Translations under genes and position numbers: made by a program
DNA from: Diprion similis
Lineage: Eukaryota > Arthropoda > Insecta > Hymenoptera > Diprionidae
Length of the DNA: 64,000 bases
Assembly: GCF_021155765.1 (NCBI RefSeq)
Contig: NC_060116.1
Location: forward strand, 17,752,657-17,816,656
Direction of reading: 5' to 3'
Shown here: positions 46,218-64,000 of the stretch, one piece after another
How positions within the stretch are numbered: the stretch's first letter is position 1
Layout of the letters: every line of letters begins with the position of its first letter
The notes under the pieces: generated by a model
Seen by the model: the letters and a program-made list of their open reading frames with translations, nothing else
Database searches by the model: none
What the model was told of the DNA's origin: nothing

Positions 46218-49200
46218 ATGATTGACTTGGATTTCAAGGTAATCGGATTGGCGTTGCGGTAAGTATCATGTATACGTTCTATATTATACTCATGTGTAAT
46301 GTATAGTATGTAAATTCCCCTTTTTCACCTCTAGACACTGTCTAACGTAAGGATAGCCCGCTTGTGCTCGGAATTATTTATTAGCTTATTAATTAATTAT
46401 AAATATAATGTATAATCATATCCATCTCAAACTGTGCAAAGTAGTCGCACGAAGAAATGAAATTGGTAGCGTTATTTCACGGAATTTGCTTAAAAATTGA
46501 GAAAAAATCCCGCTGCATCAGTCTTAATCTGAAACTTTCGATTCAAAGAGTCAAAATATGCAGAAAACGACTACTTATATTATACGTTTGACTGATTTTC
46601 TCTATTTTTTACAGTGTTTTCAACGCGCTAATGCATTCATGAGAAGCGTACTGTATTGTACATACGTGTTACTGCATACGCATAGATAAATCTCAAACTG
46701 TCAGCATTGGAAGACGCAAAACATTAAAAAGTTTCGATCCCTTCTAAATTTACATTTATCACGACCGATCCAAGTTTCATATCTTTCGAATTACCATCAT
46801 TTTCATCCGTAGAGGGAATTTGCAGTTTTGATAATGTATGTAAGTACTTTCTGATGCCCTTTTAAATGGCAATAAAAAAATAACAATAAACTGTTCGCGA
46901 TCCATTCGAAAAAAGCGAGTTAACCTTCACAGAACCTTGGTGGCTCCACTTACAAAAAATCTAACGCGTTCATAATGCGTTATTACCCCCCTTCGAACCT
47001 TAAATATTTTGAACGAAACATCTTTTCGTATCTTGCTTAGTTTTGGGGTAATCGACCCTAGGCGATTAAAATGAAACACCTTGTATGTAGAGAAGAGAAG
47101 AGAATAGAAGAAGAGACGAAGATGCTAATTAGCAGAAGAGAAACCGTGGGTTTGGAATATTTGATAAAGCTGACTATAATTCATTTAGCTGTATGTGAAT
47201 GTGTAGGTACTCATAGATATGTACAAAATGCAACTATAGGTATCTAGTATATTGAACTAAAGAACCTAACTCTACCAAATGTCAGTACCTTGTTCAACGT
47301 CGCCAGTTCTCTATCACTCACAGTTGGGTCCTGACCATTTCTGCGCTTGTCCATGGGACTCTGCTGCCCTTACGTATGGTGCAAGAGCTGGGTAAGCGCG
47401 CCAACGTCTTGAGCGCACGGTACGACCAGATGGAGGCTGGCATACTTAACTCGAAGATTCACCTGACACAGGGTACACCCGCTTGGTATCTAGGAGCTTC
47501 ACATACGATTCTTCCGGAAATTAGAAATCTTACGCACAGGGCAATCCGATCAGAAACCGTTGCGATGATGTTAGTGGCGGCTATGAATATGACACCGAAC
47601 GAGGCTGTCACGATCCTACCTTCAATGGGGCTGGCGGCATTCGGACTATGCGACAGTAACTCTGGGGAATTTTCTGAAATAATCGAGAGCTGTGAGACTA
47701 CGACGTTTCCGAGTAGAATCAAGTACAGAAGCCAATCGGGTAGGTGTAACAACCCCAAACACTCCAATTGGGGTGCTGCTTTCGAGTCATATGCCCGACT
47801 TCTGCCGGCTGAGTACGCGGACGGCGTATCGCTTCCCCGGTTATCGAATCTCCCAAGTGCCCGAGAAGTATCACTGGGTGTCCACTCGGGTCTACCGGAT
47901 CAGCCGCATCCATATTTGATGGCACTGGTAGCGTTATTTGGTCAATTCATCGCATACGACTTGTCTCACACACCGAAGGTCGAACTGCCTGACGGAACGA
48001 AGCTCAAATGCTGCGATGTCAGCTACGAACACTTTCATTCCGAGTGCTTTCCTATAAAGACTGGCAACGACACGGCAGCCCACTGTATGGAGTATACACG
48101 GTCGGCTCCGGATCCCGGAAACATCTTCGAGGTATATTTCCATGTGTATTGTATTTATGTACATATAAGTACACACGACATCCATACGAGGGGGAAAGTG
48201 AGCTATATTGAATCACGTTACTCTAAAAGAAATGATGTATGTATGTACATACGTATAGCACAAGCATTGTATGCCCTATCCTCCGAAAAGCACCTCTGGT
48301 GCAAGAACCTCGCGCCAAGTACATTTGAGTGGAAACCTCAGACGAAATTCACTTTGTACTTTGGAAACAACCAAAATGTTAATGTTCATTCAATGTAAGT
48401 GTTGAAAACAATATCCTACCTTCACAAAGAATAGTGGGATCAAAATCCTCACTGCCAAGTATATTTCATCGCAGAAATAATAAATGGACGCTACAAATAT
48501 AGAATTAGGGACGATACGACGAATTCGGTGGATTTCACTACCATGCCAAATGACGGGTTAGGCGGTGAAGTAAATTCGATATTGTTATCGAATTGTATTA
48601 TTATATGATATACATATACATGACACACCTGATTATATTATTATATACTAATATCGTACCAGAGTGGTCACAATCTGTATTATACATATAACATGTTTTT
48701 CTAAACTGACGTCAATAAGGTTAAGCCCTTCATCAAAACTGTAGCGTAAGAAAGCTATCAATTTTTTTGCACTCACGTTCAAGAGTTGGAATATTTTTAT
48801 CAAAGCTCCCTATATACAATTAGGCATTGACATTATGTCCCTGCTACTCCACCAAGCTCTACAGTTTTTATTCTATTGCGTGTGTCGTAAACTTCTCGGG
48901 TGGAGCTATTTTTAGCGTATATGTCGTATACGTATACACACAGTTCAGGCGTATATCATATATCTAGTCTGAAAGTCCACAACGGTTGACGACAATTCTT
49001 GTTTGATCTGAAGATTTCGACGATGTTGGGAATATTACAATTGGTATAAGCTGCAATGAGCTCTCCGTGCACTGATTGCATTGCAAGAGCCTAAATTAAA
49101 GCTCTTGGAGATAACGTTATAAATAAAATTGTCAGATGTCGTGAGTCACCGTGAGAGCGGAGACATATGTGATAATATTCTCGCCGTAAAGGCCAAAGGC

Positions 49201-52200
49201 CTGTTCTCTTCGCGGTAAAAGAGGGTGCGTTAGCTCGCGCGCTGAATTATTATTTATTTCCAATGAACTTGGCGCGAGAAAAGAGCGTCCCTTTTCACAC
49301 GGTGGTACGATTTATCTAGTGCTACGAAGTAGTCTACCTTCACCTATAAGTGTGTAATGTGGAAAGAGAATAGGTATATCATCATCAGGAATCTGAGTGT
49401 GAACTTTTTTTGTAGCTCGCCCAAAATTCATGAAAACACATAATCATACATAGATTATACTTTTCTGCATACACTAGTATTAAAATATTTCTGTAACGAT
49501 GTACGATTATAAGTTTCATACCGTGCAATTCACGTATTTCACGAATGCAAGTAATTTATAGAAAACGATTTTTCCAAAGTATTGTAGTCGTACATACGAC
49601 AAACCCATCTGAAATTGATTAATTTAATTACCACACATATAGGGTTGTAGATTAGGGCCACGACAGCAAATAAATCAGGCAACATCGTACTTGGATTTGT
49701 CTTCGGTCTATGGAAGTTCCAATTCGAAGACGAGAGTACTACGTTCAGGTGCCGGAGGCCGGCTGAAAACGCAAAGGAAAAACTTACCGATGCCATCTGC
49801 AATACCGGGCAGCTGCCGGAGCGATATCGCGGCGTTCCCATGCTTTTTCAGTGGCGATGCCCGTATCAACGAACATCCGGGTCTCGCTCTCATACACCTT
49901 CTCTTTATACGAGAACACAACAAGGTGGCAGCTCGACTCGAGTCCCTTAATGCTCACTGGAATGATGACACGTTATTTGAGGAAGCTCGGCGAATCGTGA
50001 TTGCCGAATTACAGCATATCACCTACAACGAATTCCTGCCAGTTGTACTAGGCGAGTCTACGCTTGACAGGTTCGCACGTCAATCATTCGTATATTCAAA
50101 ATGTAGCCGTATGTAGAAAAAAAGTGTAGAAGTGTGCTTCATGTTGCTGCGATTTTTATACAAACCGTTACCAGCACTCGCAAGTAAAAAACGTTATTGA
50201 CGAATAGTGCTGATAGGTTAATTGAAAAGGATGATGGCGAGAAATGAATTTTCCGAATTTTTTTAATCACAGCCAATTTTATGAAATTCAGGGAGATGAA
50301 GGCAGCGTGAGGCACTTCGGAAACGATATGATCATGCAGGTTACATGAACATTTTTCTCTTCTTATTTACATATCGCTGAAGAAAATATAAATCTCACTG
50401 CTTGTGTTGCCCAACAATAAATTGAAAAAAATAGTTACTCGGGACTTAGCGAGCAGTGTCTCTAATAAATGAAAGATTTTAAACAATCTTTCGCATGTCT
50501 CACGCTGCGCCAGGCGTCCCATTGTATTCTACTCTTGTGCCTTCTATATTATAGTACGTATGTTTAGCAATTTAAGATTGTAGCTAATAATACAAAAACG
50601 TCTTTAATTTGCATCTAATCACAGATTCCTTATCGGCGGTACGGAAAGAATGATTCTTTATCCATACCTAATCCAACTAGTCGTTGGTAAACTATATCTT
50701 ATGACAATACTGTCAATATGTTCTGTGTAAATGAACTCAATTTAAAGCATTATATGGAGGCGGGGGGGGGGGGGGGGGGGGGGGGGGCAGAATGCGGCAC
50801 TTGAAGCAGATGAAAAGCTTGGTGGGAATTGTTTTATTGATCTTTTACTATATTGGAGGTGCCCCACTTTGACGCAGGAGACACAAAATAGTGTATTTCA
50901 AGAACACATATTTTCCTTGTAACTTAAAAAAGGCTATTATTTACGTTAACTTTAATTAAACAGAAATAGAAAAAATATCATTTGAATAACCATGATCATT
51001 TTTTTTCCTTAAATGCCACATTTTATCGTCAACTTCCCTGTATACATCTACCTATTACATAGGTATATCAATGACTGCTGAAAAATTTTGCTTCCATGAT
51101 TTCGCGTCTAGATGGAATATTCGACTTGAGGTGGAAGGTTTTTTCGAGGGATATCAACCACAGACAGATGCGACATTGTCAAATGCAGCTGCTTCCGTGG
51201 GTCTTCTTTTTGTTGCCGCCATCACCCCCAAGACCATCGATCTAGTCGATACGCGATCGAAAAAGTTCGTCAAGTTTGGCGAAAGATCTTTACTTTCTTC
51301 GTTTTACGCACCGCAGGAAATTTACGAAGCTGGTGCAATCGATCGACTGATTGCTGGGGCAACAGGTGAGACACACGAAAAATATATTTAAATGTTCATT
51401 GATCCTGGAGCCATATTACATAGTTGCAAATTTTAAATATCAAAGGCCATCAATATGCATGAACTTAGAATGACGACGCTGGTTGAAATTCCGATGTACA
51501 GGCTTTAACACGGATGGCAGAAAAATCATCGCATTAAAATATACCATGAGAATCATACATGATTTGAATACCTATAGGTCTCTTACAGTTAGTGGTATTC
51601 GTATGTTTTTTCGTATATTTAGGGGACCCTTTCACATGTTTCATCGTAATCGGAATTTTGACGAATGATGACTTGAAATTTTTCACATAGAGCAGCGTTA
51701 TTGGGGTGAACGTACGTGGTGAACTCGGTTCAAGGTCAATCGAAAAACAATTATTTCTATGGAGATCAATCAGTTTTCCTCTTACCTAATTCATCGTGAG
51801 TCCGAAATCTGCACACATGGTAATTAACTACGTGATTTTAGGTTTATACAAAGTAGGATAGCGATTGTAACTTGCAACACGAAGAAATTGATCCATAGTA
51901 GTTCCAGAAGGTTTACGAGTGAAAGGTGCCACTTGTGGTCACTGATTAATGTTTGGTCAGACGTGCGAAGAGCTTTAATAGCTTTTGGTACTACAGATCC
52001 ATATATTCAGTAATTGCAATAATCACAAGACATACATATTTTGCAGTAAATATTGAACGGAACTTTTAATTACCAAATTGTTTGAAAACCAAATTTTACA
52101 GTGATCAAATCTGATAAAACATTTGTGTACGATTTGAGTTAGCCAAAACAGATACTGATGAGGTACCATGCTAAAATTGGCGTATGAACAGTGCGTTGCG

Positions 52201-55200
52201 GAGCTTGTAACGGTCAGTGTCATACGAAGTTACATTGATGAGAAATGACAGGATTGAAAAATAAAATTGAATATGCATACGTCTGTATGATTAACTTATG
52301 GCCACCCAACTAAATGAAATTCTGTTACGATACAGTTGGGCACTCCAGGAAACCTGTGCCACCTGGACTCAATGAGATATTTCTTGGGCGATATTTCCAC
52401 GATGGTAAGTCTCCGGAGAATCCGGTCGATCTCGCTGCACAGCTCATTCAACGTGGCAGGGACCACGGTCTACCGCCTTATACAAAGTGGAGGACGTTTT
52501 GCGGATTGCCCGATGCCAGTACCTTCGCGGATCTCCGTGGTACGATATCCGACGAAGCAATACGGAGGTTACACCTCGTATACGGGCAAGTAACAACTTT
52601 AGAATTTAATTCCCCGAGCGTTGATGACTTTCCCTTTATGACACAATACCTGCAATGCAACGTCGAAATGTAGGCGGAGTATCTTATTAGTCTGTTTATT
52701 TGACATTAAAATGAAAATCACGAACGAGGTAATAGCAACAGACGGTAAATGTGAAGGTGAGAATGTTACAGAACCTGAATATTCCAAATCGAATGAATAC
52801 GCACCAACAGGTATGTATTTCATATAAACGTATCTACACTGTAACAGAATGCATTTAGCGTTTCGATCGTGATCAACTTCTCCTGTCCTTGGCATTAGCG
52901 GGCCTTACATCATCGTTTCATAGTTTACGTTTCTCTAAATCCGTTTACTGTTTCCATATGACTACAACCAGTGACCTTGACGGTAGTTGCACGTATAAAT
53001 TACGGTTGACAATGAGACGTGCAAATCCTGTAAGCTGTGGAATTTCTCGATAAGACCATGCATTCGCAATATCACACGATCTGATTACACATAATATCAA
53101 CCAAAAACGTCATACATCAGGAAAGAATACCACGAAATAGAAATTGGAACTATCCCACCGCTGACTCACATAGTGTGATACATGTGCCACATTTAAAATT
53201 GTCATGTACATACATTATACATATAACGAGTGTATTTCGCAGTGAACAACGTCGACGTACCCATTCATGTTACATTGGCGTGTCAGACAGAATAATATAT
53301 TGCAAACGTTGGGGAAAAAATTGATATTCAATATGTTACAACGAAATGTGATCTCGTAAAATAAAGATATAGGGAAAGTTGTGTCAGTGTAATATTTGAT
53401 ATACATTTTAATATTGCAACAGCTTCAAGTTTGTGCGTAGCTGGGACTGATGGAACTGTTGCGTATAGTGTGTACATCTGAAGCAGCGGTTCCAATTTGA
53501 AGCACATTATTGAAAAGCAGTCGCTATAGATTGTGAATTGAATCTATATTTTTCCAATATCCAAATCAAAATATTGTTCACCGAGCCTGCAGAATTACTT
53601 GATCTAAAAGCTGCACTAATAACTATTGTTTTTATTCAAATAAAACATACTGTGAACTCTGATGTTAACTATATTATGAAATATTATCCTACTTCTACGA
53701 ATGAAAGTACTTATCGATTACTCGGGATCGACTCTTATGTTTTGAATTTCTACTGTAGGAGTGTCAAGGATGTCGACCTCGTTACCGGGGCTTTCGCAGA
53801 GGCTCCCATTGGGGGATCCATAATAGGTCCGACGTTTTCGTGTCTACTCGGACGCACATTCAGAAATATCCGCCTCGGTAAGATCTCTGCTTGTATTTTA
53901 AAAGGGGCTGCTAACTTGAATACCTAATGGGAGTATTAAGTATTCACTTACTGTTAACATGTTTTAAACTTACCTTTACGCCCTATGGCCGCAGGTGACA
54001 GATATTGGTACGAGAACGGGAATACACCGGGAGCTTTTACGTTGGAACAGCTAAAAGAAATACGCAAGAGCTCCATGGCAATGTTACTGTGCAACAACGG
54101 GGACCATCTCGAACAAGTGCAGCCAAGATCCTTTATTTTGAGCGATTCTTTTTTGTAAGTTTTCGTATTCATCCATCAATGATCGCGCTCCTGCCATTTA
54201 TGTTACTCCCTAGTCATGCAATGAACTCACCCACTATCTTAATCACATCTTATAATTCCGAGCAGTGAAATTAGTCCAGTCAAATTAGCTCTAATAATAG
54301 GCCGATCTTGTTGTTGGCTTACCACACTTGGGGACCAAGCGCTTTTTATGTAAAAAAAATGCGCTCATTTCGAAAATCCTAGTCCCCGTGGGCGCAAAGT
54401 GGCGGAACATATTGTTAAAAATCAAAAACTGAAAAATTACCAAATAAAGTCGCATTTTTTCGCATTCATCGTCGAATATCTCGGAAAGTATGGCTCTTAG
54501 GCAAAAAATGTACAGAGGTCAATTTGCTGAGAATTATATTTTCCACAAGACGCACTTGGTCTCGAATGTTAATTTTCAAAATTTGATTTTTTTTAATGCA
54601 AAATACGAAAAAAGAAATTTGCAAAATTGAGTACTCATTATCCCCCCTTAAAATTCATCCAACCTCTTTGATGATCGGTAATCAATTACCTCTTTTGGTT
54701 GCAAAACAGTGAGTTAAACCCGATCCCTGTGGGTAGAATAGTTATTGCATAATTAAGCAACAAAAAAAAAAAAGTAATGCCTTCTGTAGCATTTGCTATA
54801 ACACCCACACTGGTCTCGATTTTTTTACCCATATTAGACACCCCCAATAACAATTTCCAATGGTTTTTTAATTTTTTTTTCCAATTTGACGGCCTACAGA
54901 ATTTTTGAAAAAAAAAAATCACTTTTTTTCCCAATAATAAATGGAATAACTTTCAACCTATACTATCAAGTGTTACCTTATAGTACACGGTTAGAAAGCT
55001 GTTTTAAAGACGTACAATTTCCCAAAAAAAACGTCGAAATCCAATGGGTAGATCCCGAGATAATGGTCTTTAACTTTAGAGCTCGTTTTTGAGGCAACTA
55101 TAAATGCTAGCACAATCTGCAGAACGCCGATCGGTTTGATGAACCAACTTCTATCCACGTGCAAGTTGTTGAAAATATTATAATACGAATTTGCATTTAG

Positions 55201-55832
55201 AATGCAAGAGAGAGTGAACGCCGTCGCGCGAAATTGCAGCGTGCGCGGCTCCCGTGCAGCGTGCGCGGCGGTGGTGGGGGAAGAGCGAAGCCGTCTTTGC
55301 AAAATAAATGTTCTCGGCGCGCTTTTTCATTGCGAATTTCTCGGCTTCTATTAGACCAAAATGCATGACTTTTTTTTTTAAATTTGAATGTTTTGAGTCA
55401 AGTAATGCAATGAACATAATCGTTATCCTAAATTCAACACAGTTTACAAGATATTACAGGAAATTGTAGTACAGTACAGTATATTGTAATTGTTTCTATT
55501 AGTAGAAACGATAATATTTGTAAGAGCTATACTAATTTTTCAGTTTTTGATTTTTAACAATATGTTCCGCCACTTTGCGCCCACGGGGACTAGGATTTTC
55601 AAAATCAGCGCATTTTTTTACATAAGAAGCGCTTGGTCCCCAAGTGTGGTAAGCCAACACCCAACCCAATCCCTATATAATTTGACTAGACTAAATCATA
55701 TACGTATATTTGAAATCAAACACCTTTTAAATGAGTTCATCTTCACCCTACAGAAACCCAATTTCCAACTGCTCAACGCTGACTACCTTGGACTTAACAC
55801 CTTGGAAGGAGAGATTAACAGGAACAACTTGA
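46218..55832 (+). CDS. Animal haem-peroxidase family protein lacking both haem-site histidines (predicted pseudoenzyme)
   Basis: Exons: 46218-46258, 47324-48131, 49643-50070, 51112-51365, 52336-52585, 53759-53877, 53995-54154, 55754-55832. These total 2139 nt (712 residues) with consistent phases. An N-terminal hydrophobic stretch (VIGLALRWVLTISALVHGTL) looks like a signal peptide or anchor. The fold is clearly that of insect chorion-type peroxidases: CNNPKHSNWGAAFESYARLL, LGPRQQINQATSYLD, LIHLLFIREHNKVAA, DLAAQLIQRGRDHGLPPY, YGSVKDVDL and a PISNCSTLTTLDLTPW end. Key sites differ: canonical GQFxDHD reads GQFIAYD, so the distal Asp and His are Ala224 and Tyr225; the proximal His of FRFGH is Ala461 (SVGLLFVAA). 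Arg357 and Glu360 (GDARINEHP), equivalent to MPO R239 and E242, remain. Normal peroxidase chemistry is unlikely. Intron 5 starts with GC (52586), required by phase. The remaining exons are intact, so this is not simply a pseudogene. Confidence 0.9.
50762..50787 (+). repeat. Poly(G) tract in a peroxidase intron
   Basis: 26 consecutive G residues. It could fold as a quadruplex, or its length could be a sequencing artefact. Confidence 0.6.
54312..55659. mobile_element. 1.35-kb long-TIR DNA element in the last peroxidase intron
   Basis: Terminal inverted repeats of about 125 bp (54312-54440 and 55531-55659) begin TGTTGGCTTACCACACTTGG and share GCGCAAAGTGGCGGAACATA. The interior has no transposase frame. 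It has short AT-rich stretches and a CG-rich insert at about 55215-55320 with a repeated GCAGCGTGCGCGGC. No clear target duplication was found, so the superfamily is open. The intron around it still splices in phase. Confidence 0.85.
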
Positions 55833-57164: not shown

Positions 57165-57912
57165 GTTTTTAGAAAAAATTAGAATTCCTGGCCTACTTGG
57201 AGTTATTGATTGCCTACTAGTTAACTTCATAAGGCCAGTAAGGATAAAGAAGCTTTTTATGATTATAAGGGGTTTCACGTCGTGAATGTGCGGGTTGTAC
57301 GTGACATGTTTTCAATAATATTTTATCTGGCTAAGAAATTGCAAACTGAAATTTCTATGTGATGTGAAATATGATGTGAAATATGAAATATGAATCAATA
57401 CTTTTTAGGTGTGTGACCCGGAGTACATGCATGATACGGGATATCCGTATTTGTCCTGGAAGCAACAATGATTGTTATGTTTGGCAATACAGTGAGGTTA
57501 AACAATTTTCAGCGGACTTGAGGCAAAGCGAGGCGAAGAGGAAGACGCTATTATACTTACTTGGTACGTAATAGATATGTTGTTACCAATAAATTCACCA
57601 ATGATCCTGTATGAGTGACATGATTTTTATTTTTTAGAGGACAGTGGTTATACCCCTTCTACAATCCTGTTAATCCCGGTACGCGATCCGCCGGAAGGGT
57701 CGCCAGCATCCCGTCACAATGACGAATTTGTACAAACCAGATGCAAAATCAAACGAACTTCTGGAATTCTGACAACTGTGTGGCGTTTCATAAAACAAGA
57801 GCGGAAGCTGTGTTACAGGGACCCTCAGAAAGTCGCGAAAACTACTATTGCATGCGCAGTTTTGCAGAATTTTCAAACAAGACGGGGTGTTCGCCCCTTT
57901 GACGATCTGTGA
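57165..57912 (+). pseudogene. PIF/Harbinger (HARBI1-like) transposase gene, spliced but frameshifted
   Basis: Three exon-like blocks. Block A (57165-57296): FLEKIRIPGLLGVIDCLLVN, then after a frame change in a T-run at 57253-57258, YDYKGFHVVNVRV. Block B (57409-57563): VCDPEYM, then after a frame change at 57426-57436, IRDIRICPGSNNDCYVWQ. Block C (57638-57912): EDSGYTPSTILLIPV, then RHNDEFVQTRCKIKR, GILTTVWRFIKQERKLCY and VAKTTIACAVLQN, ending at TGA 57910-57912. These follow the DDE-nuclease order of Harbinger proteins (GxID, KGxHxxNVQVVCD, PGSxHDS, GDSGY, ER-GxLK-RF, CxVLHN). Junctions A/B and B/C use GT-AG signals and keep phase. The N-terminus was not found. Two frameshifts suggest decay unless they are assembly errors. 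Confidence 0.75.
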
Positions 57913-61344: not shown

Positions 61345-61522
61345 CGGTCAGGTTTAGGTCAGGTTTAGGTCAGGTTTAGGTCAGGTATAGGTCAGGTATA
61401 GGTCAGGTTTAGGTCAGGTTTAGGTCAGGTTTAGGTCAGGTTTGGGTCAGGTTTGGGTCAGGTTTCGGTCAGGTTTCGGTTAGGTTAGGTTAGGTTAGGT
61501 TAGGTTAGGTTAGGTTAGGTTA
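61345..61522 (+). repeat. Interstitial telomere-like array, 11-bp TTTAGGTCAGG grading into TTAGG
   Basis: From about 61348 to 61478 the period is 11 bp (TTTAGG plus TCAGG) with variants TATAGG, TTTGGG and TTTCGG. From 61479 it becomes pure TTAGG for about eight units. Orientation is the same as the terminal telomere. It is about 2.2 kb inside the terminal array. Confidence 0.9.
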
Positions 61523-61631
61523 TAGCCATGACCACCGGTCGACTTCCGGTTTTTGAGTGAACTTTTTCGGATTTTTTCCGCTCTTTCCAATGCCGCTAAT
61601 TATTCCAAAATCTACCGGGCCGTTTTTGAGA

Positions 61632-62190
61632 TTTTGAGGGGGGGGGGGGGGGCAAAAATGGGGGGCGGCGAGGGGGGGTGGGTGGGTCGGGTGCAGGATC
61701 CCCCCGCCCGTTATGTCCCCCACGGCCCCCTCCCCCCTCCCCCATTTGACCCCCCCGGGGGGGGTGGGGGGGGGGAACGGTTGCTGGACCCATTTGGTCC
61801 TGGCATGAACTTTTCAGCCCTTGATTTATCGAAAAAAATGAGCCCCTAACCAACCCTCTCCGTAGCTTGGTTCAAAAGATAGGCGTTTTTCGAAAAATAT
61901 CACCCACCTAACCTGACCCGACCCAACTCAAAAAGTGATGGTCGGACGCATAAAAGTTCTGCGCACCCGTTTCCGATGTCAGACTGACACCCCCCCTCAA
62001 AACCCCCCCCGCGGGGGGCGTGGGGGGGGAACCGTCGCTGGACCTAATTGGTCCAGACATGAACTTGGTAGAGCTTGATTTATCGAACAAAACGAGCCCT
62101 CAACGAACCCTCTCCGTAGAACGGTTCAGGAGATATGAATTTTTGAAAATTATTTTGCACCTAACCTAACCTATGTCGGAAACAACGGAA
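61632..62190. repeat. Duplicated G-tract subtelomeric unit (~300 bp, two copies)
   Basis: Both copies have long G/C homopolymer blocks (61638-61780 and 61987-62030), then GCTGGACC--TTGGTCC, CATGAACTT, CTTGATTTATCGAA, GAGCCC and AACC-ACCCTCTCCGTAG, ending with a short CACCTAACCT block, that is, telomere repeats in reverse orientation. The G-runs can form quadruplexes on one strand. Confidence 0.8.
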
Positions 62191-62225
62191 ATTTTCTAAG
62201 TTTTTTTTCGAAATTTTCGTCACAC

Positions 62226-62640
62226 AGAAACTTGTTTTTTAGGCGTTTCAAACGATTCTGAGCCGATCTGTACCTATTTCGCGGGAACTTTTTTTTTTTT
62301 TTTTGAACGCACAACCCCAAAAACTTTGAAATTTTTCGAATTTTGAAAAAAAAAAATGTTACCCAGAGACTTGTTTTCTACGCGTTTCGAACGATTCTGA
62401 GCCGATCTGTACCTATTTGGCGGGTACTTTTTTTTTTTTTTTTTGAACGCACGACCCAAAAAACTTTGAAATTTATCGAATTTCGAAAAAAAAATTAGTC
62501 ACCCAGAGACTTGTTTTCTGGGCGTTTTGGACGATTCTGAGCCGATCGGTACCTATTTGTCGGGAACTTTTTTTTTTTTTTTTCCTAATTCCACCGCCCA
62601 ACTCAAAAACTTCAAAATCGCCCCGGAAAATTCCGAAAAA
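62226..62640 (+). repeat. ~140-bp tandem repeat, three copies
   Basis: CGATTCTGAGCCGATC recurs at about 62253, 62392 and 62532 (spacing 139-140). Each unit also holds ACTTGTTTT-TAGGCGTTT-type text, TACCTATTT--CGGG, a T-tract of 15-18 and AAAACTT-GAAAT. Confidence 0.85.
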
Positions 62641-62865
62641 ATTCCAGTGAACCAGTGCGGTCATCGCGGTGAAAAAACCTCCTCAGAAGCATGTCGCTAA
62701 ATCTCACGGTTCGGATTTTACAGCCGGCGTTTCCGCTTTCCCGGCGACCGACTTCCGATTCGACACCACCATCGCGTTTAGATGGCCATAATCAAGCGGG
62801 GACCCGCGGTAATTCAAATTTCAAGTCGATCGGATCGATTTCAGAAAAGTTAGGACAAGTTCGGC

Positions 62866-63456
62866 CCTCCGAGACATTGGATTCCGGACGGTTGGAATAT
62901 GTTCGGCTTCCGGATTCTACGGCGGCCGAGAGGTTAGGAAGGGTTCGGCTCCCCGAAACCACAACACACACGGGGGCACGAACAACGCGAAAGGTGGTCG
63001 CGGCACCCGGAAGGTTGGAATAAGTTCGGCTTCCGGATTCTACGGCGGCCGAGAGGTTAGGAAGGGTTCGGCTCCCCGAAACCACAACACACACGGGGGT
63101 ACGAACAACGCGAAAGGTGGTCGCGGCACCCGGAAGGTTGGAATAAGTTCGGCTTCCGGATTCTACGGCGGCCGAGAGGTTAGGAAGGGTTCGGCTCCCC
63201 GAAACCACAACACACACGGGGGTACGAACAACGCGAAAGGTGGTCGCGGCACCCGGAAGGTTGGAATAAGTTCGGCTTCCGGATTCTACGGCGGCCGAGA
63301 GGTTAGGAAGGGTTCGGCTCCCCGAAACCACAACACACACGGGGGTACGAACAACGCGAAAGGTGGTCGCGGCACCCGGAAGGTTGGAATAAGTTCGGCT
63401 TCCGGATTCTACGGCGGCCGAGAGGTTAGGAAGGGTTCGGCTCCCCGAAACTACAA
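62866..63456 (+). repeat. 123-bp tandem satellite, about five copies
   Basis: GGTTGGAATAAGTTCGGCTT begins at 63013, 63136, 63259 and 63382 (exact period 123) after a diverged first copy at 62889. Copies 2-5 are nearly identical. Because 123 is a multiple of three, the minus strand stays open for 182 codons, which is not evidence of a protein. Confidence 0.92.
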
Positions 63457-63720
63457 TGCATATCTATAGTTCCAAAACCGTACACTTTTCAGGGGTACTT
63501 GATATCAAGTTTTTTGACCGCGACAGCTTGCCCAATTTTTCAGAATTTTCTCAGATTTTTTCACTGATATTTTAAAATTTTTGGAACAGGTACAAAATAA
63601 AGAAAACGTCTTCGAAAGTTACCCTGGGTCGTCTCAGAATCGCCCGAAACGCCTAGAAAACACTTCTCCCCGTGACGAAAATTTCGAAAAAAAACTTTGA
63701 AAATTTTCGAAGCTCCAGAG
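63457..63720. repeat. Telomere-proximal spacer with an inverted copy of the 140-bp unit
   Basis: CTCAGAATCG-CCGAAACGCC at about 63637-63656 is the reverse complement of the GGCGTTTCGAACGATTCTGAG portion of the 140-bp repeat, followed by TAGAAAACA and CGAAAATTTCG. It joins directly to the telomere array. Confidence 0.7.
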
Positions 63721-64000
63721 TAGGTTAGGTTAGGTTAGGTTAGGTTAGGTTAGGTTAGGTTAGGTTAGGTTAGGTTAGGTTAGGTTAGGTTAGGTTAGGT
63801 TAGGTTAGGTTAGGTTAGGTTAGGTTAGGTTAGGTTAGGTTAGGTTAGGTTAGGTTAGGTTAGGTTAGGTTAGGTTAGGTTAGGTTAGGTTAGGTTAGGT
63901 TAGGTTAGGTTAGGTTAGGTTAGGTTAGGTTAGGTTAGGTTAGGTTAGGTTAGGTTAGGTTAGGTTAGGTTAGGTTAGGTTAGGTTAGGTTAGGTTAGGT
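63721..64000 (+). repeat. Telomere, (TTAGG)56
   Basis: 280 bases of perfect TTAGG repeat run to the window edge. The G-rich strand reads 5'->3' toward the end, as at a right chromosome terminus. TTAGG is the ancestral arthropod telomerase product. The array abuts subtelomeric satellite with no intervening retrotransposon. Confidence 0.97.

Follow-up and report, generated by a model that had tools for sequence, protein, structure and literature searches.

Results

A peroxidase-like gene near a telomere-type repeat

The window, meaning the whole 64,000-nucleotide stretch of Diprion similis DNA that we analysed, lies at the end of contig C12, making up its final 64 kb, in a genome of 269 Mb and 60 contigs. 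The telomere unit, the gene content and the structure of the genes all look insect-like. The window carries a peroxidase-like gene on the + strand at 47324-55832, referred to here as W. Spliced alignment resolved the coding part into seven exons, partial at the 5' end, which encode 698 residues with zero internal stops.

47324..48131, + strand: first exon found, preceded by acceptor ACAG and entered in phase 2; hydrophobic WVLTISALVHGT start, unassigned N-terminal extension, then the first part of the peroxidase domain, including GQFIAYD (spliced alignment; PF03098 8.8e-32)
47952..47960, + strand: Ala-Tyr-Asp replaces Asp-His-Asp, so that the haem-ester Asp and the distal His are gone and the calcium Asp remains
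49643..50070, + strand: exon 2, with the calcium loop (TSYLDLS), GDARINE and the REHN helix (Pfam 2.1e-55, spliced alignment)
51112..51365, + strand: exon with the altered proximal helix SNAAASVGLLFVAAITP (Pfam 5.6e-7)
52336..52585, + strand: exon carrying DLAAQLIQRGRDHG, in which the proximal Asn has become Leu (52443); donor ACGG|GCAAGT (GC-AG) (Pfam match)
53759..53877, + strand: exon SVKDVDLVTGAFAEAPIGGSIIGPTFSCLLGRTFRNIR (Pfam match, spliced alignment)
53995..54154, + strand: exon GDRYWYENGNTPGAFT...VQPRSFILSDSFL, donor GTAAGT at 54155 (Pfam match)
55754..55832, + strand: final exon, NPISNCSTLTTLDLTPWKERLTGTT with the stop codon (spliced alignment, using the C-terminal end of the double peroxidase)
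63721..64000, + strand: telomere-type repeat of 56 TTAGG units at the end of the contig, context of W

The exons were mapped with a purpose-written spliced aligner and a paralogue as query, which gave 47328-48131 through 53995 onwards without a stop. The first exon was extended from the aligner's start at 47328 to the acceptor at 47324, and the last was located with the C-terminus of the same genome's double peroxidase. The six introns are GT-AG with the single exception of one GC-AG. Given the phase 2 entry, the start may be supplied by an upstream exon, or translation may begin at the first Met, model residue 18. Five candidates for an upstream first exon were considered, none of them convincing.

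The Pfam family An_peroxidase (PF03098) matched all six exon frames scanned (the first six of seven) with E values from 5.6e-7 to 2.1e-55, and these matches jointly span most of PF03098 positions 1-530, placing W in the animal haem peroxidase family by descent. The first-pass annotation had drawn the gene at 47952..51220 with eight exons. The observation itself holds, but the modelled coding sequence spans 47324-55832, and seven exons were found, a count that an upstream first exon would bring to eight. Residue numbers in that annotation equal those of the 698-residue model plus 14 throughout.

Other features surround or interrupt the gene. Tandem arrays of 11, 140 and 123 bases lie just inside the TTAGG repeat, the whole region occupying 61346-64000, and a DDE_Tnp_4 transposase fragment (57619-57912) lies between W and the telomere. 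The intron preceding the proximal-helix exon contains an uninterrupted run of 26 G (50762-50787).

The haem pocket of W

The haem site was read from a 13-row alignment that sets W beside lactoperoxidase and 11 further domains from its own genome, with functions for the distal and proximal His, Gln, Asp, Arg, Glu, Asn and calcium Asp assigned after PMC3533774. On the distal side, positions 47940-47963 encode GQFIAYDL, where the codons GCA (Ala, 47952) and TAC (Tyr, 47955) replace Asp-His. On the proximal side, 51179-51232 encode SNAAASVGLLFVAAITPK, and GCC (Ala) at 51215 occupies the proximal-His column. The codons thus bear out the first-pass annotation on the loss of both histidines, as well as on the retention of the catalytic Arg (49862) and the haem-linking Glu (49871). 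Two further losses go beyond it: the proximal Asn is Leu (codon 52443), and so is a conserved, haem-contacting Arg that precedes the proximal His by three residues (codon 51206). Among the residues that a functional animal haem peroxidase requires, W has Tyr and Ala for the two histidines and Leu for the Asn bonded to the proximal His, while the distal Gln, Arg and ester Glu are in place together with the calcium-binding Asp and loop, including all four calcium-site residues counted (Asp, Thr, Asp, Ser). These changes are unlikely to stem from chance or faulty assembly, because five altered pocket codons are spread over three exons of a model without a stop or frameshift.

Ten of the 13 rows keep the proximal His; the three without it are W (Ala), gene F (Asn) and AN (Leu), where AN denotes the double peroxidase's N-terminal half. 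Nine rows have the distal His, the exceptions being W, AN and the two Duox-like genes, E and J. Only W and AN have lost both. Lactoperoxidase, seven of the 11 other domains of this genome and all eight bacterial relatives retain both histidines.

These bacterial relatives came from a genome-contig pattern search that matched 27 stretches, eight of them relatives and all of those bacterial; they served as a control set only, and no orthologue of W was found in viral contigs. In L022, L024 and L025, long flanks misplaced the distal column in the alignment, and the distal motif was read directly instead. The peroxidase domain of these three of the eight loci, all from Planctomycetota, looks circularly permuted, with the N-terminal segment that bears the distal His motif downstream of the C-terminal segment.

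Relatives of W in the same genome

A search of the genome with the W protein returned at least 33 matches, seven at the exons of W and the rest at or directly beside loci of the Pfam search. The nearest relative is gene C (L013 plus L012), with 41% identity over 486 columns. The two are sisters in the tree with support of 85/81, which rises to 98/98 once the long AN row is removed; a clade of W and AN is neither shown nor rejected (p-AU 0.163). Judged by its sequence, C is an ordinary animal haem peroxidase with a single domain. Both histidines, both ester acids and the Asn are present in it, and it has one mapped domain intron, located elsewhere than those of W, against five in W. The idea that all exon phases had been preserved did not hold up, as only one of the five mapped W introns (column 520, phase 2) coincides with an intron of paralogue I, in an alignment-dependent manner. 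Homology between the N-terminal extension of W and that of C gained no support, since 210 of 1000 shuffles scored as high as the real pair.

AN resembles W in having lost both histidines and the Asn and in a gap at the GDPVY-type loop, as judged by eye. It differs in that Arg and Glu are also lost, 49 of the 85 conserved columns described below are kept, and an intact half follows in the same frame. The double peroxidase itself (L010, contig C3), presumably DBLOX, joins its two halves in a single 1234-residue open frame; the N-terminal half is without both His, Arg, Glu and Asn, and the C-terminal half keeps all of them.

Genes F, G and H (L016-L018) form a cluster on contig C1 at 1.73-1.77 Mb, and in all three both haem-ester acids are replaced and the proximal Asn is Asp. 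F (L016) keeps the distal His and has Asn for the proximal His, Ala for the ester Asp and His for the ester Glu. If these proteins bind haem, their sequences suggest that the usual ester links would be absent. The genome also holds two Duox-like genes, E and J (L015/L029 and L020/L030). Among three frames scanned downstream of them, one beside E matched FAD_binding_8 and the one beside J matched Ferric_reduct above the cut-off. W lies outside the Duox clade, with E and J branching apart at 100/100 support.

Constraint and decay

W keeps 70 of the 85 columns that are invariant in six haem-competent domains; the same columns are kept 72 times in F, 76 in G, 76 in H, 55 in E, 57 in J and 49 in AN. 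In a leave-one-out comparison, each haem-competent domain keeps 85 of 89-101 columns; over these column sets the figure for W is 74 to 79. The losses in W affect five of eight pocket positions (distal Asp and His; proximal-side Arg, His and Asn) against 10 of 77 elsewhere, giving a one-sided Fisher p of 0.004 for a pocket set chosen after the residue table had been inspected. With smaller sets the value is 0.017 without the Arg and 0.037 with only the five sites named by the earlier note. One non-pocket loss, F385H, may reflect gap placement. Concentration in the pocket also appears in F (4/8 lost, p 0.017), G and H (3/8 lost and p 0.036 in each) and AN (p 0.009), and it is not seen in the Duox-like E and J (p 0.59 and 0.81). 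Because F, G, H and AN show it, and G and H keep both histidines, the pattern is not specific to haem loss; it shows altered pocket chemistry and is not by itself proof that haem is gone.

Outside the pocket, W keeps 10 of the 10 cysteine columns common to at least 6 of the 13 rows. As a yardstick for decay, we simulated neutral change from the coding sequence of gene C (300 runs per level), a rough measure given the lack of indels and the paralogue start. At 0.3 changes per site, the simulated genes lost 4.0 of eight pocket residues, gained 11.7 stops and kept 48% of the cysteines of C. At 0.05 changes per site, 5% of runs had zero stops, and no run lost five or more pocket residues. W has lost five pocket residues and has no stop. 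Synonymous divergence between W and C stands at a pS of 0.81, with dS saturated and both it and dN/dS therefore undefined. The tree branch of W measures 1.35 against 0.63 for C, about twice as long, which is compatible with partly relaxed constraint.

Discussion

Our analysis suggests that W is best read as a putative pseudo-peroxidase whose fold has been retained, much like the domains of Duox and PXDNL. The first-pass proposal of selection for structure or binding rather than catalysis gains support from the haem-pocket losses, the retained fold markers and the missing signature of neutral decay. We infer that the product is probably a secreted, disulfide-bonded, calcium-stabilised peroxidase-fold protein that would not bind haem normally or act as a peroxidase, and that most likely works by binding. 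In such a scenario, haem chemistry would have been given up and the peroxidase fold retained for structure. The protein might serve as a structural or matrix binding partner, or it could compete with or regulate an active peroxidase or Duox without any catalysis of its own, comparable to the haem-free DUOX1 domain that serves assembly.

Precedents for peroxidase folds without catalysis have been described. Human DUOX1 is a well-documented case: its peroxidase domain shows no haem density, and mutants at either of its cation sites fail to co-assemble with DUOXA1, for which the authors speculate a folding effect (PMC7794343). By motif correspondence, W keeps the residues of the second cation site. 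Fly Duox is reportedly without both histidines (PMC4654585). The Duox peroxidase-homology domain is like W in having a peroxidase fold without the usual haem site (PMC7794343, PMC4654585), but it belongs to a membrane NADPH oxidase, and the Duox-like E and J of this genome, unlike W, keep a His in the proximal column. Human PXDNL, a second parallel, is a duplicate peroxidase with changed conserved residues and no measurable activity (PMC8533639). It differs from W in that the changes named there are at Gln and Asp and the protein is multi-domain. Lost catalytic residues, kept fold positions and an open frame, which characterise this non-catalytic kind, are all found in W. Among the matches listed from open-licence PMC papers, there was no stand-alone haem-less insect peroxidase.

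Several other explanations can be weighed against a fold-retaining pseudo-peroxidase. A recent loss of function, in which the haem residues were early casualties of a dying gene, would fit the long branch of W and its subtelomeric site about 7.9 kb before the telomere-type repeat. Such a gene would hardly be expected to lack any stop or frameshift, to keep every shared cysteine column and to concentrate its losses in the pocket, and the neutral simulation disagrees with it as well; we regard this account as unlikely. The opposite possibility, that unseen exons restore the motifs and the true product is an ordinary peroxidase, draws on the 5' partial state of the model. Exons restoring DHD or FRFGH, which the first-pass annotation had named as grounds against its reading, were looked for in 43801-64000 with four motif patterns in six frames on both strands, giving zero matches, and tblastn with the 13 domains as queries found nothing outside the exons of W below E 0.18. 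The exons bearing the losses also carry their conserved flanking sequence. The probability of this account is close to negligible.

Two further readings would assign W a different function. Catalases use an Arg-Tyr pair to support their haem ligand, and by this precedent haem might still be bound in W. The Tyr at the distal place, next to the surviving Arg, would be its axial ligand, and the surviving Glu could go on forming an ester link to it. Iron coordination would then have shifted from the proximal face of the haem to the distal one, giving a catalase-like ligand inside a myeloperoxidase fold. Such a switch would accommodate both the kept distal Gln, Arg and Glu and the loss of all three tabulated proximal-side residues (Arg, His and Asn). 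The ester-forming Asp has been lost too, however, nothing in our data shows haem binding by W, and we know of no peroxidase with such a tyrosine ligand switch; we consider it very unlikely. The first-pass annotation had in mind an adhesion role like that of peroxinectin; an adhesion protein of this type, bound by an integrin through RGD or KGD, is likewise very unlikely. W belongs to the animal-peroxidase family, and peroxinectins and Cysu reportedly bear integrin-binding motifs (PMC3533774, PMC5225594), but RGD, KGD and LDV are all absent from the 698-residue model, so the single feature tested for this role offers it no support. RGD does occur in paralogues D and I of this genome, within a family-wide R-x-GDR stretch.

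One specific puzzle comes with the fold-retaining pseudo-peroxidase: the distal Arg and Glu are retained. A pocket that is simply dead would not explain why these two residues and the distal Gln are still there. Naming by Pfam match would label W a peroxidase, a name that is probably wrong on its chemistry. In the literature considered here, the haem-free domains of Duox and PXDNL are parts of larger proteins, whereas W is a separate single-domain gene that has kept its cysteines, calcium site and most fold positions and lost both histidines and the proximal Asn. W would be a natural test of how the peroxidase fold is used without haem, and of which pocket residues serve folding and which serve catalysis.
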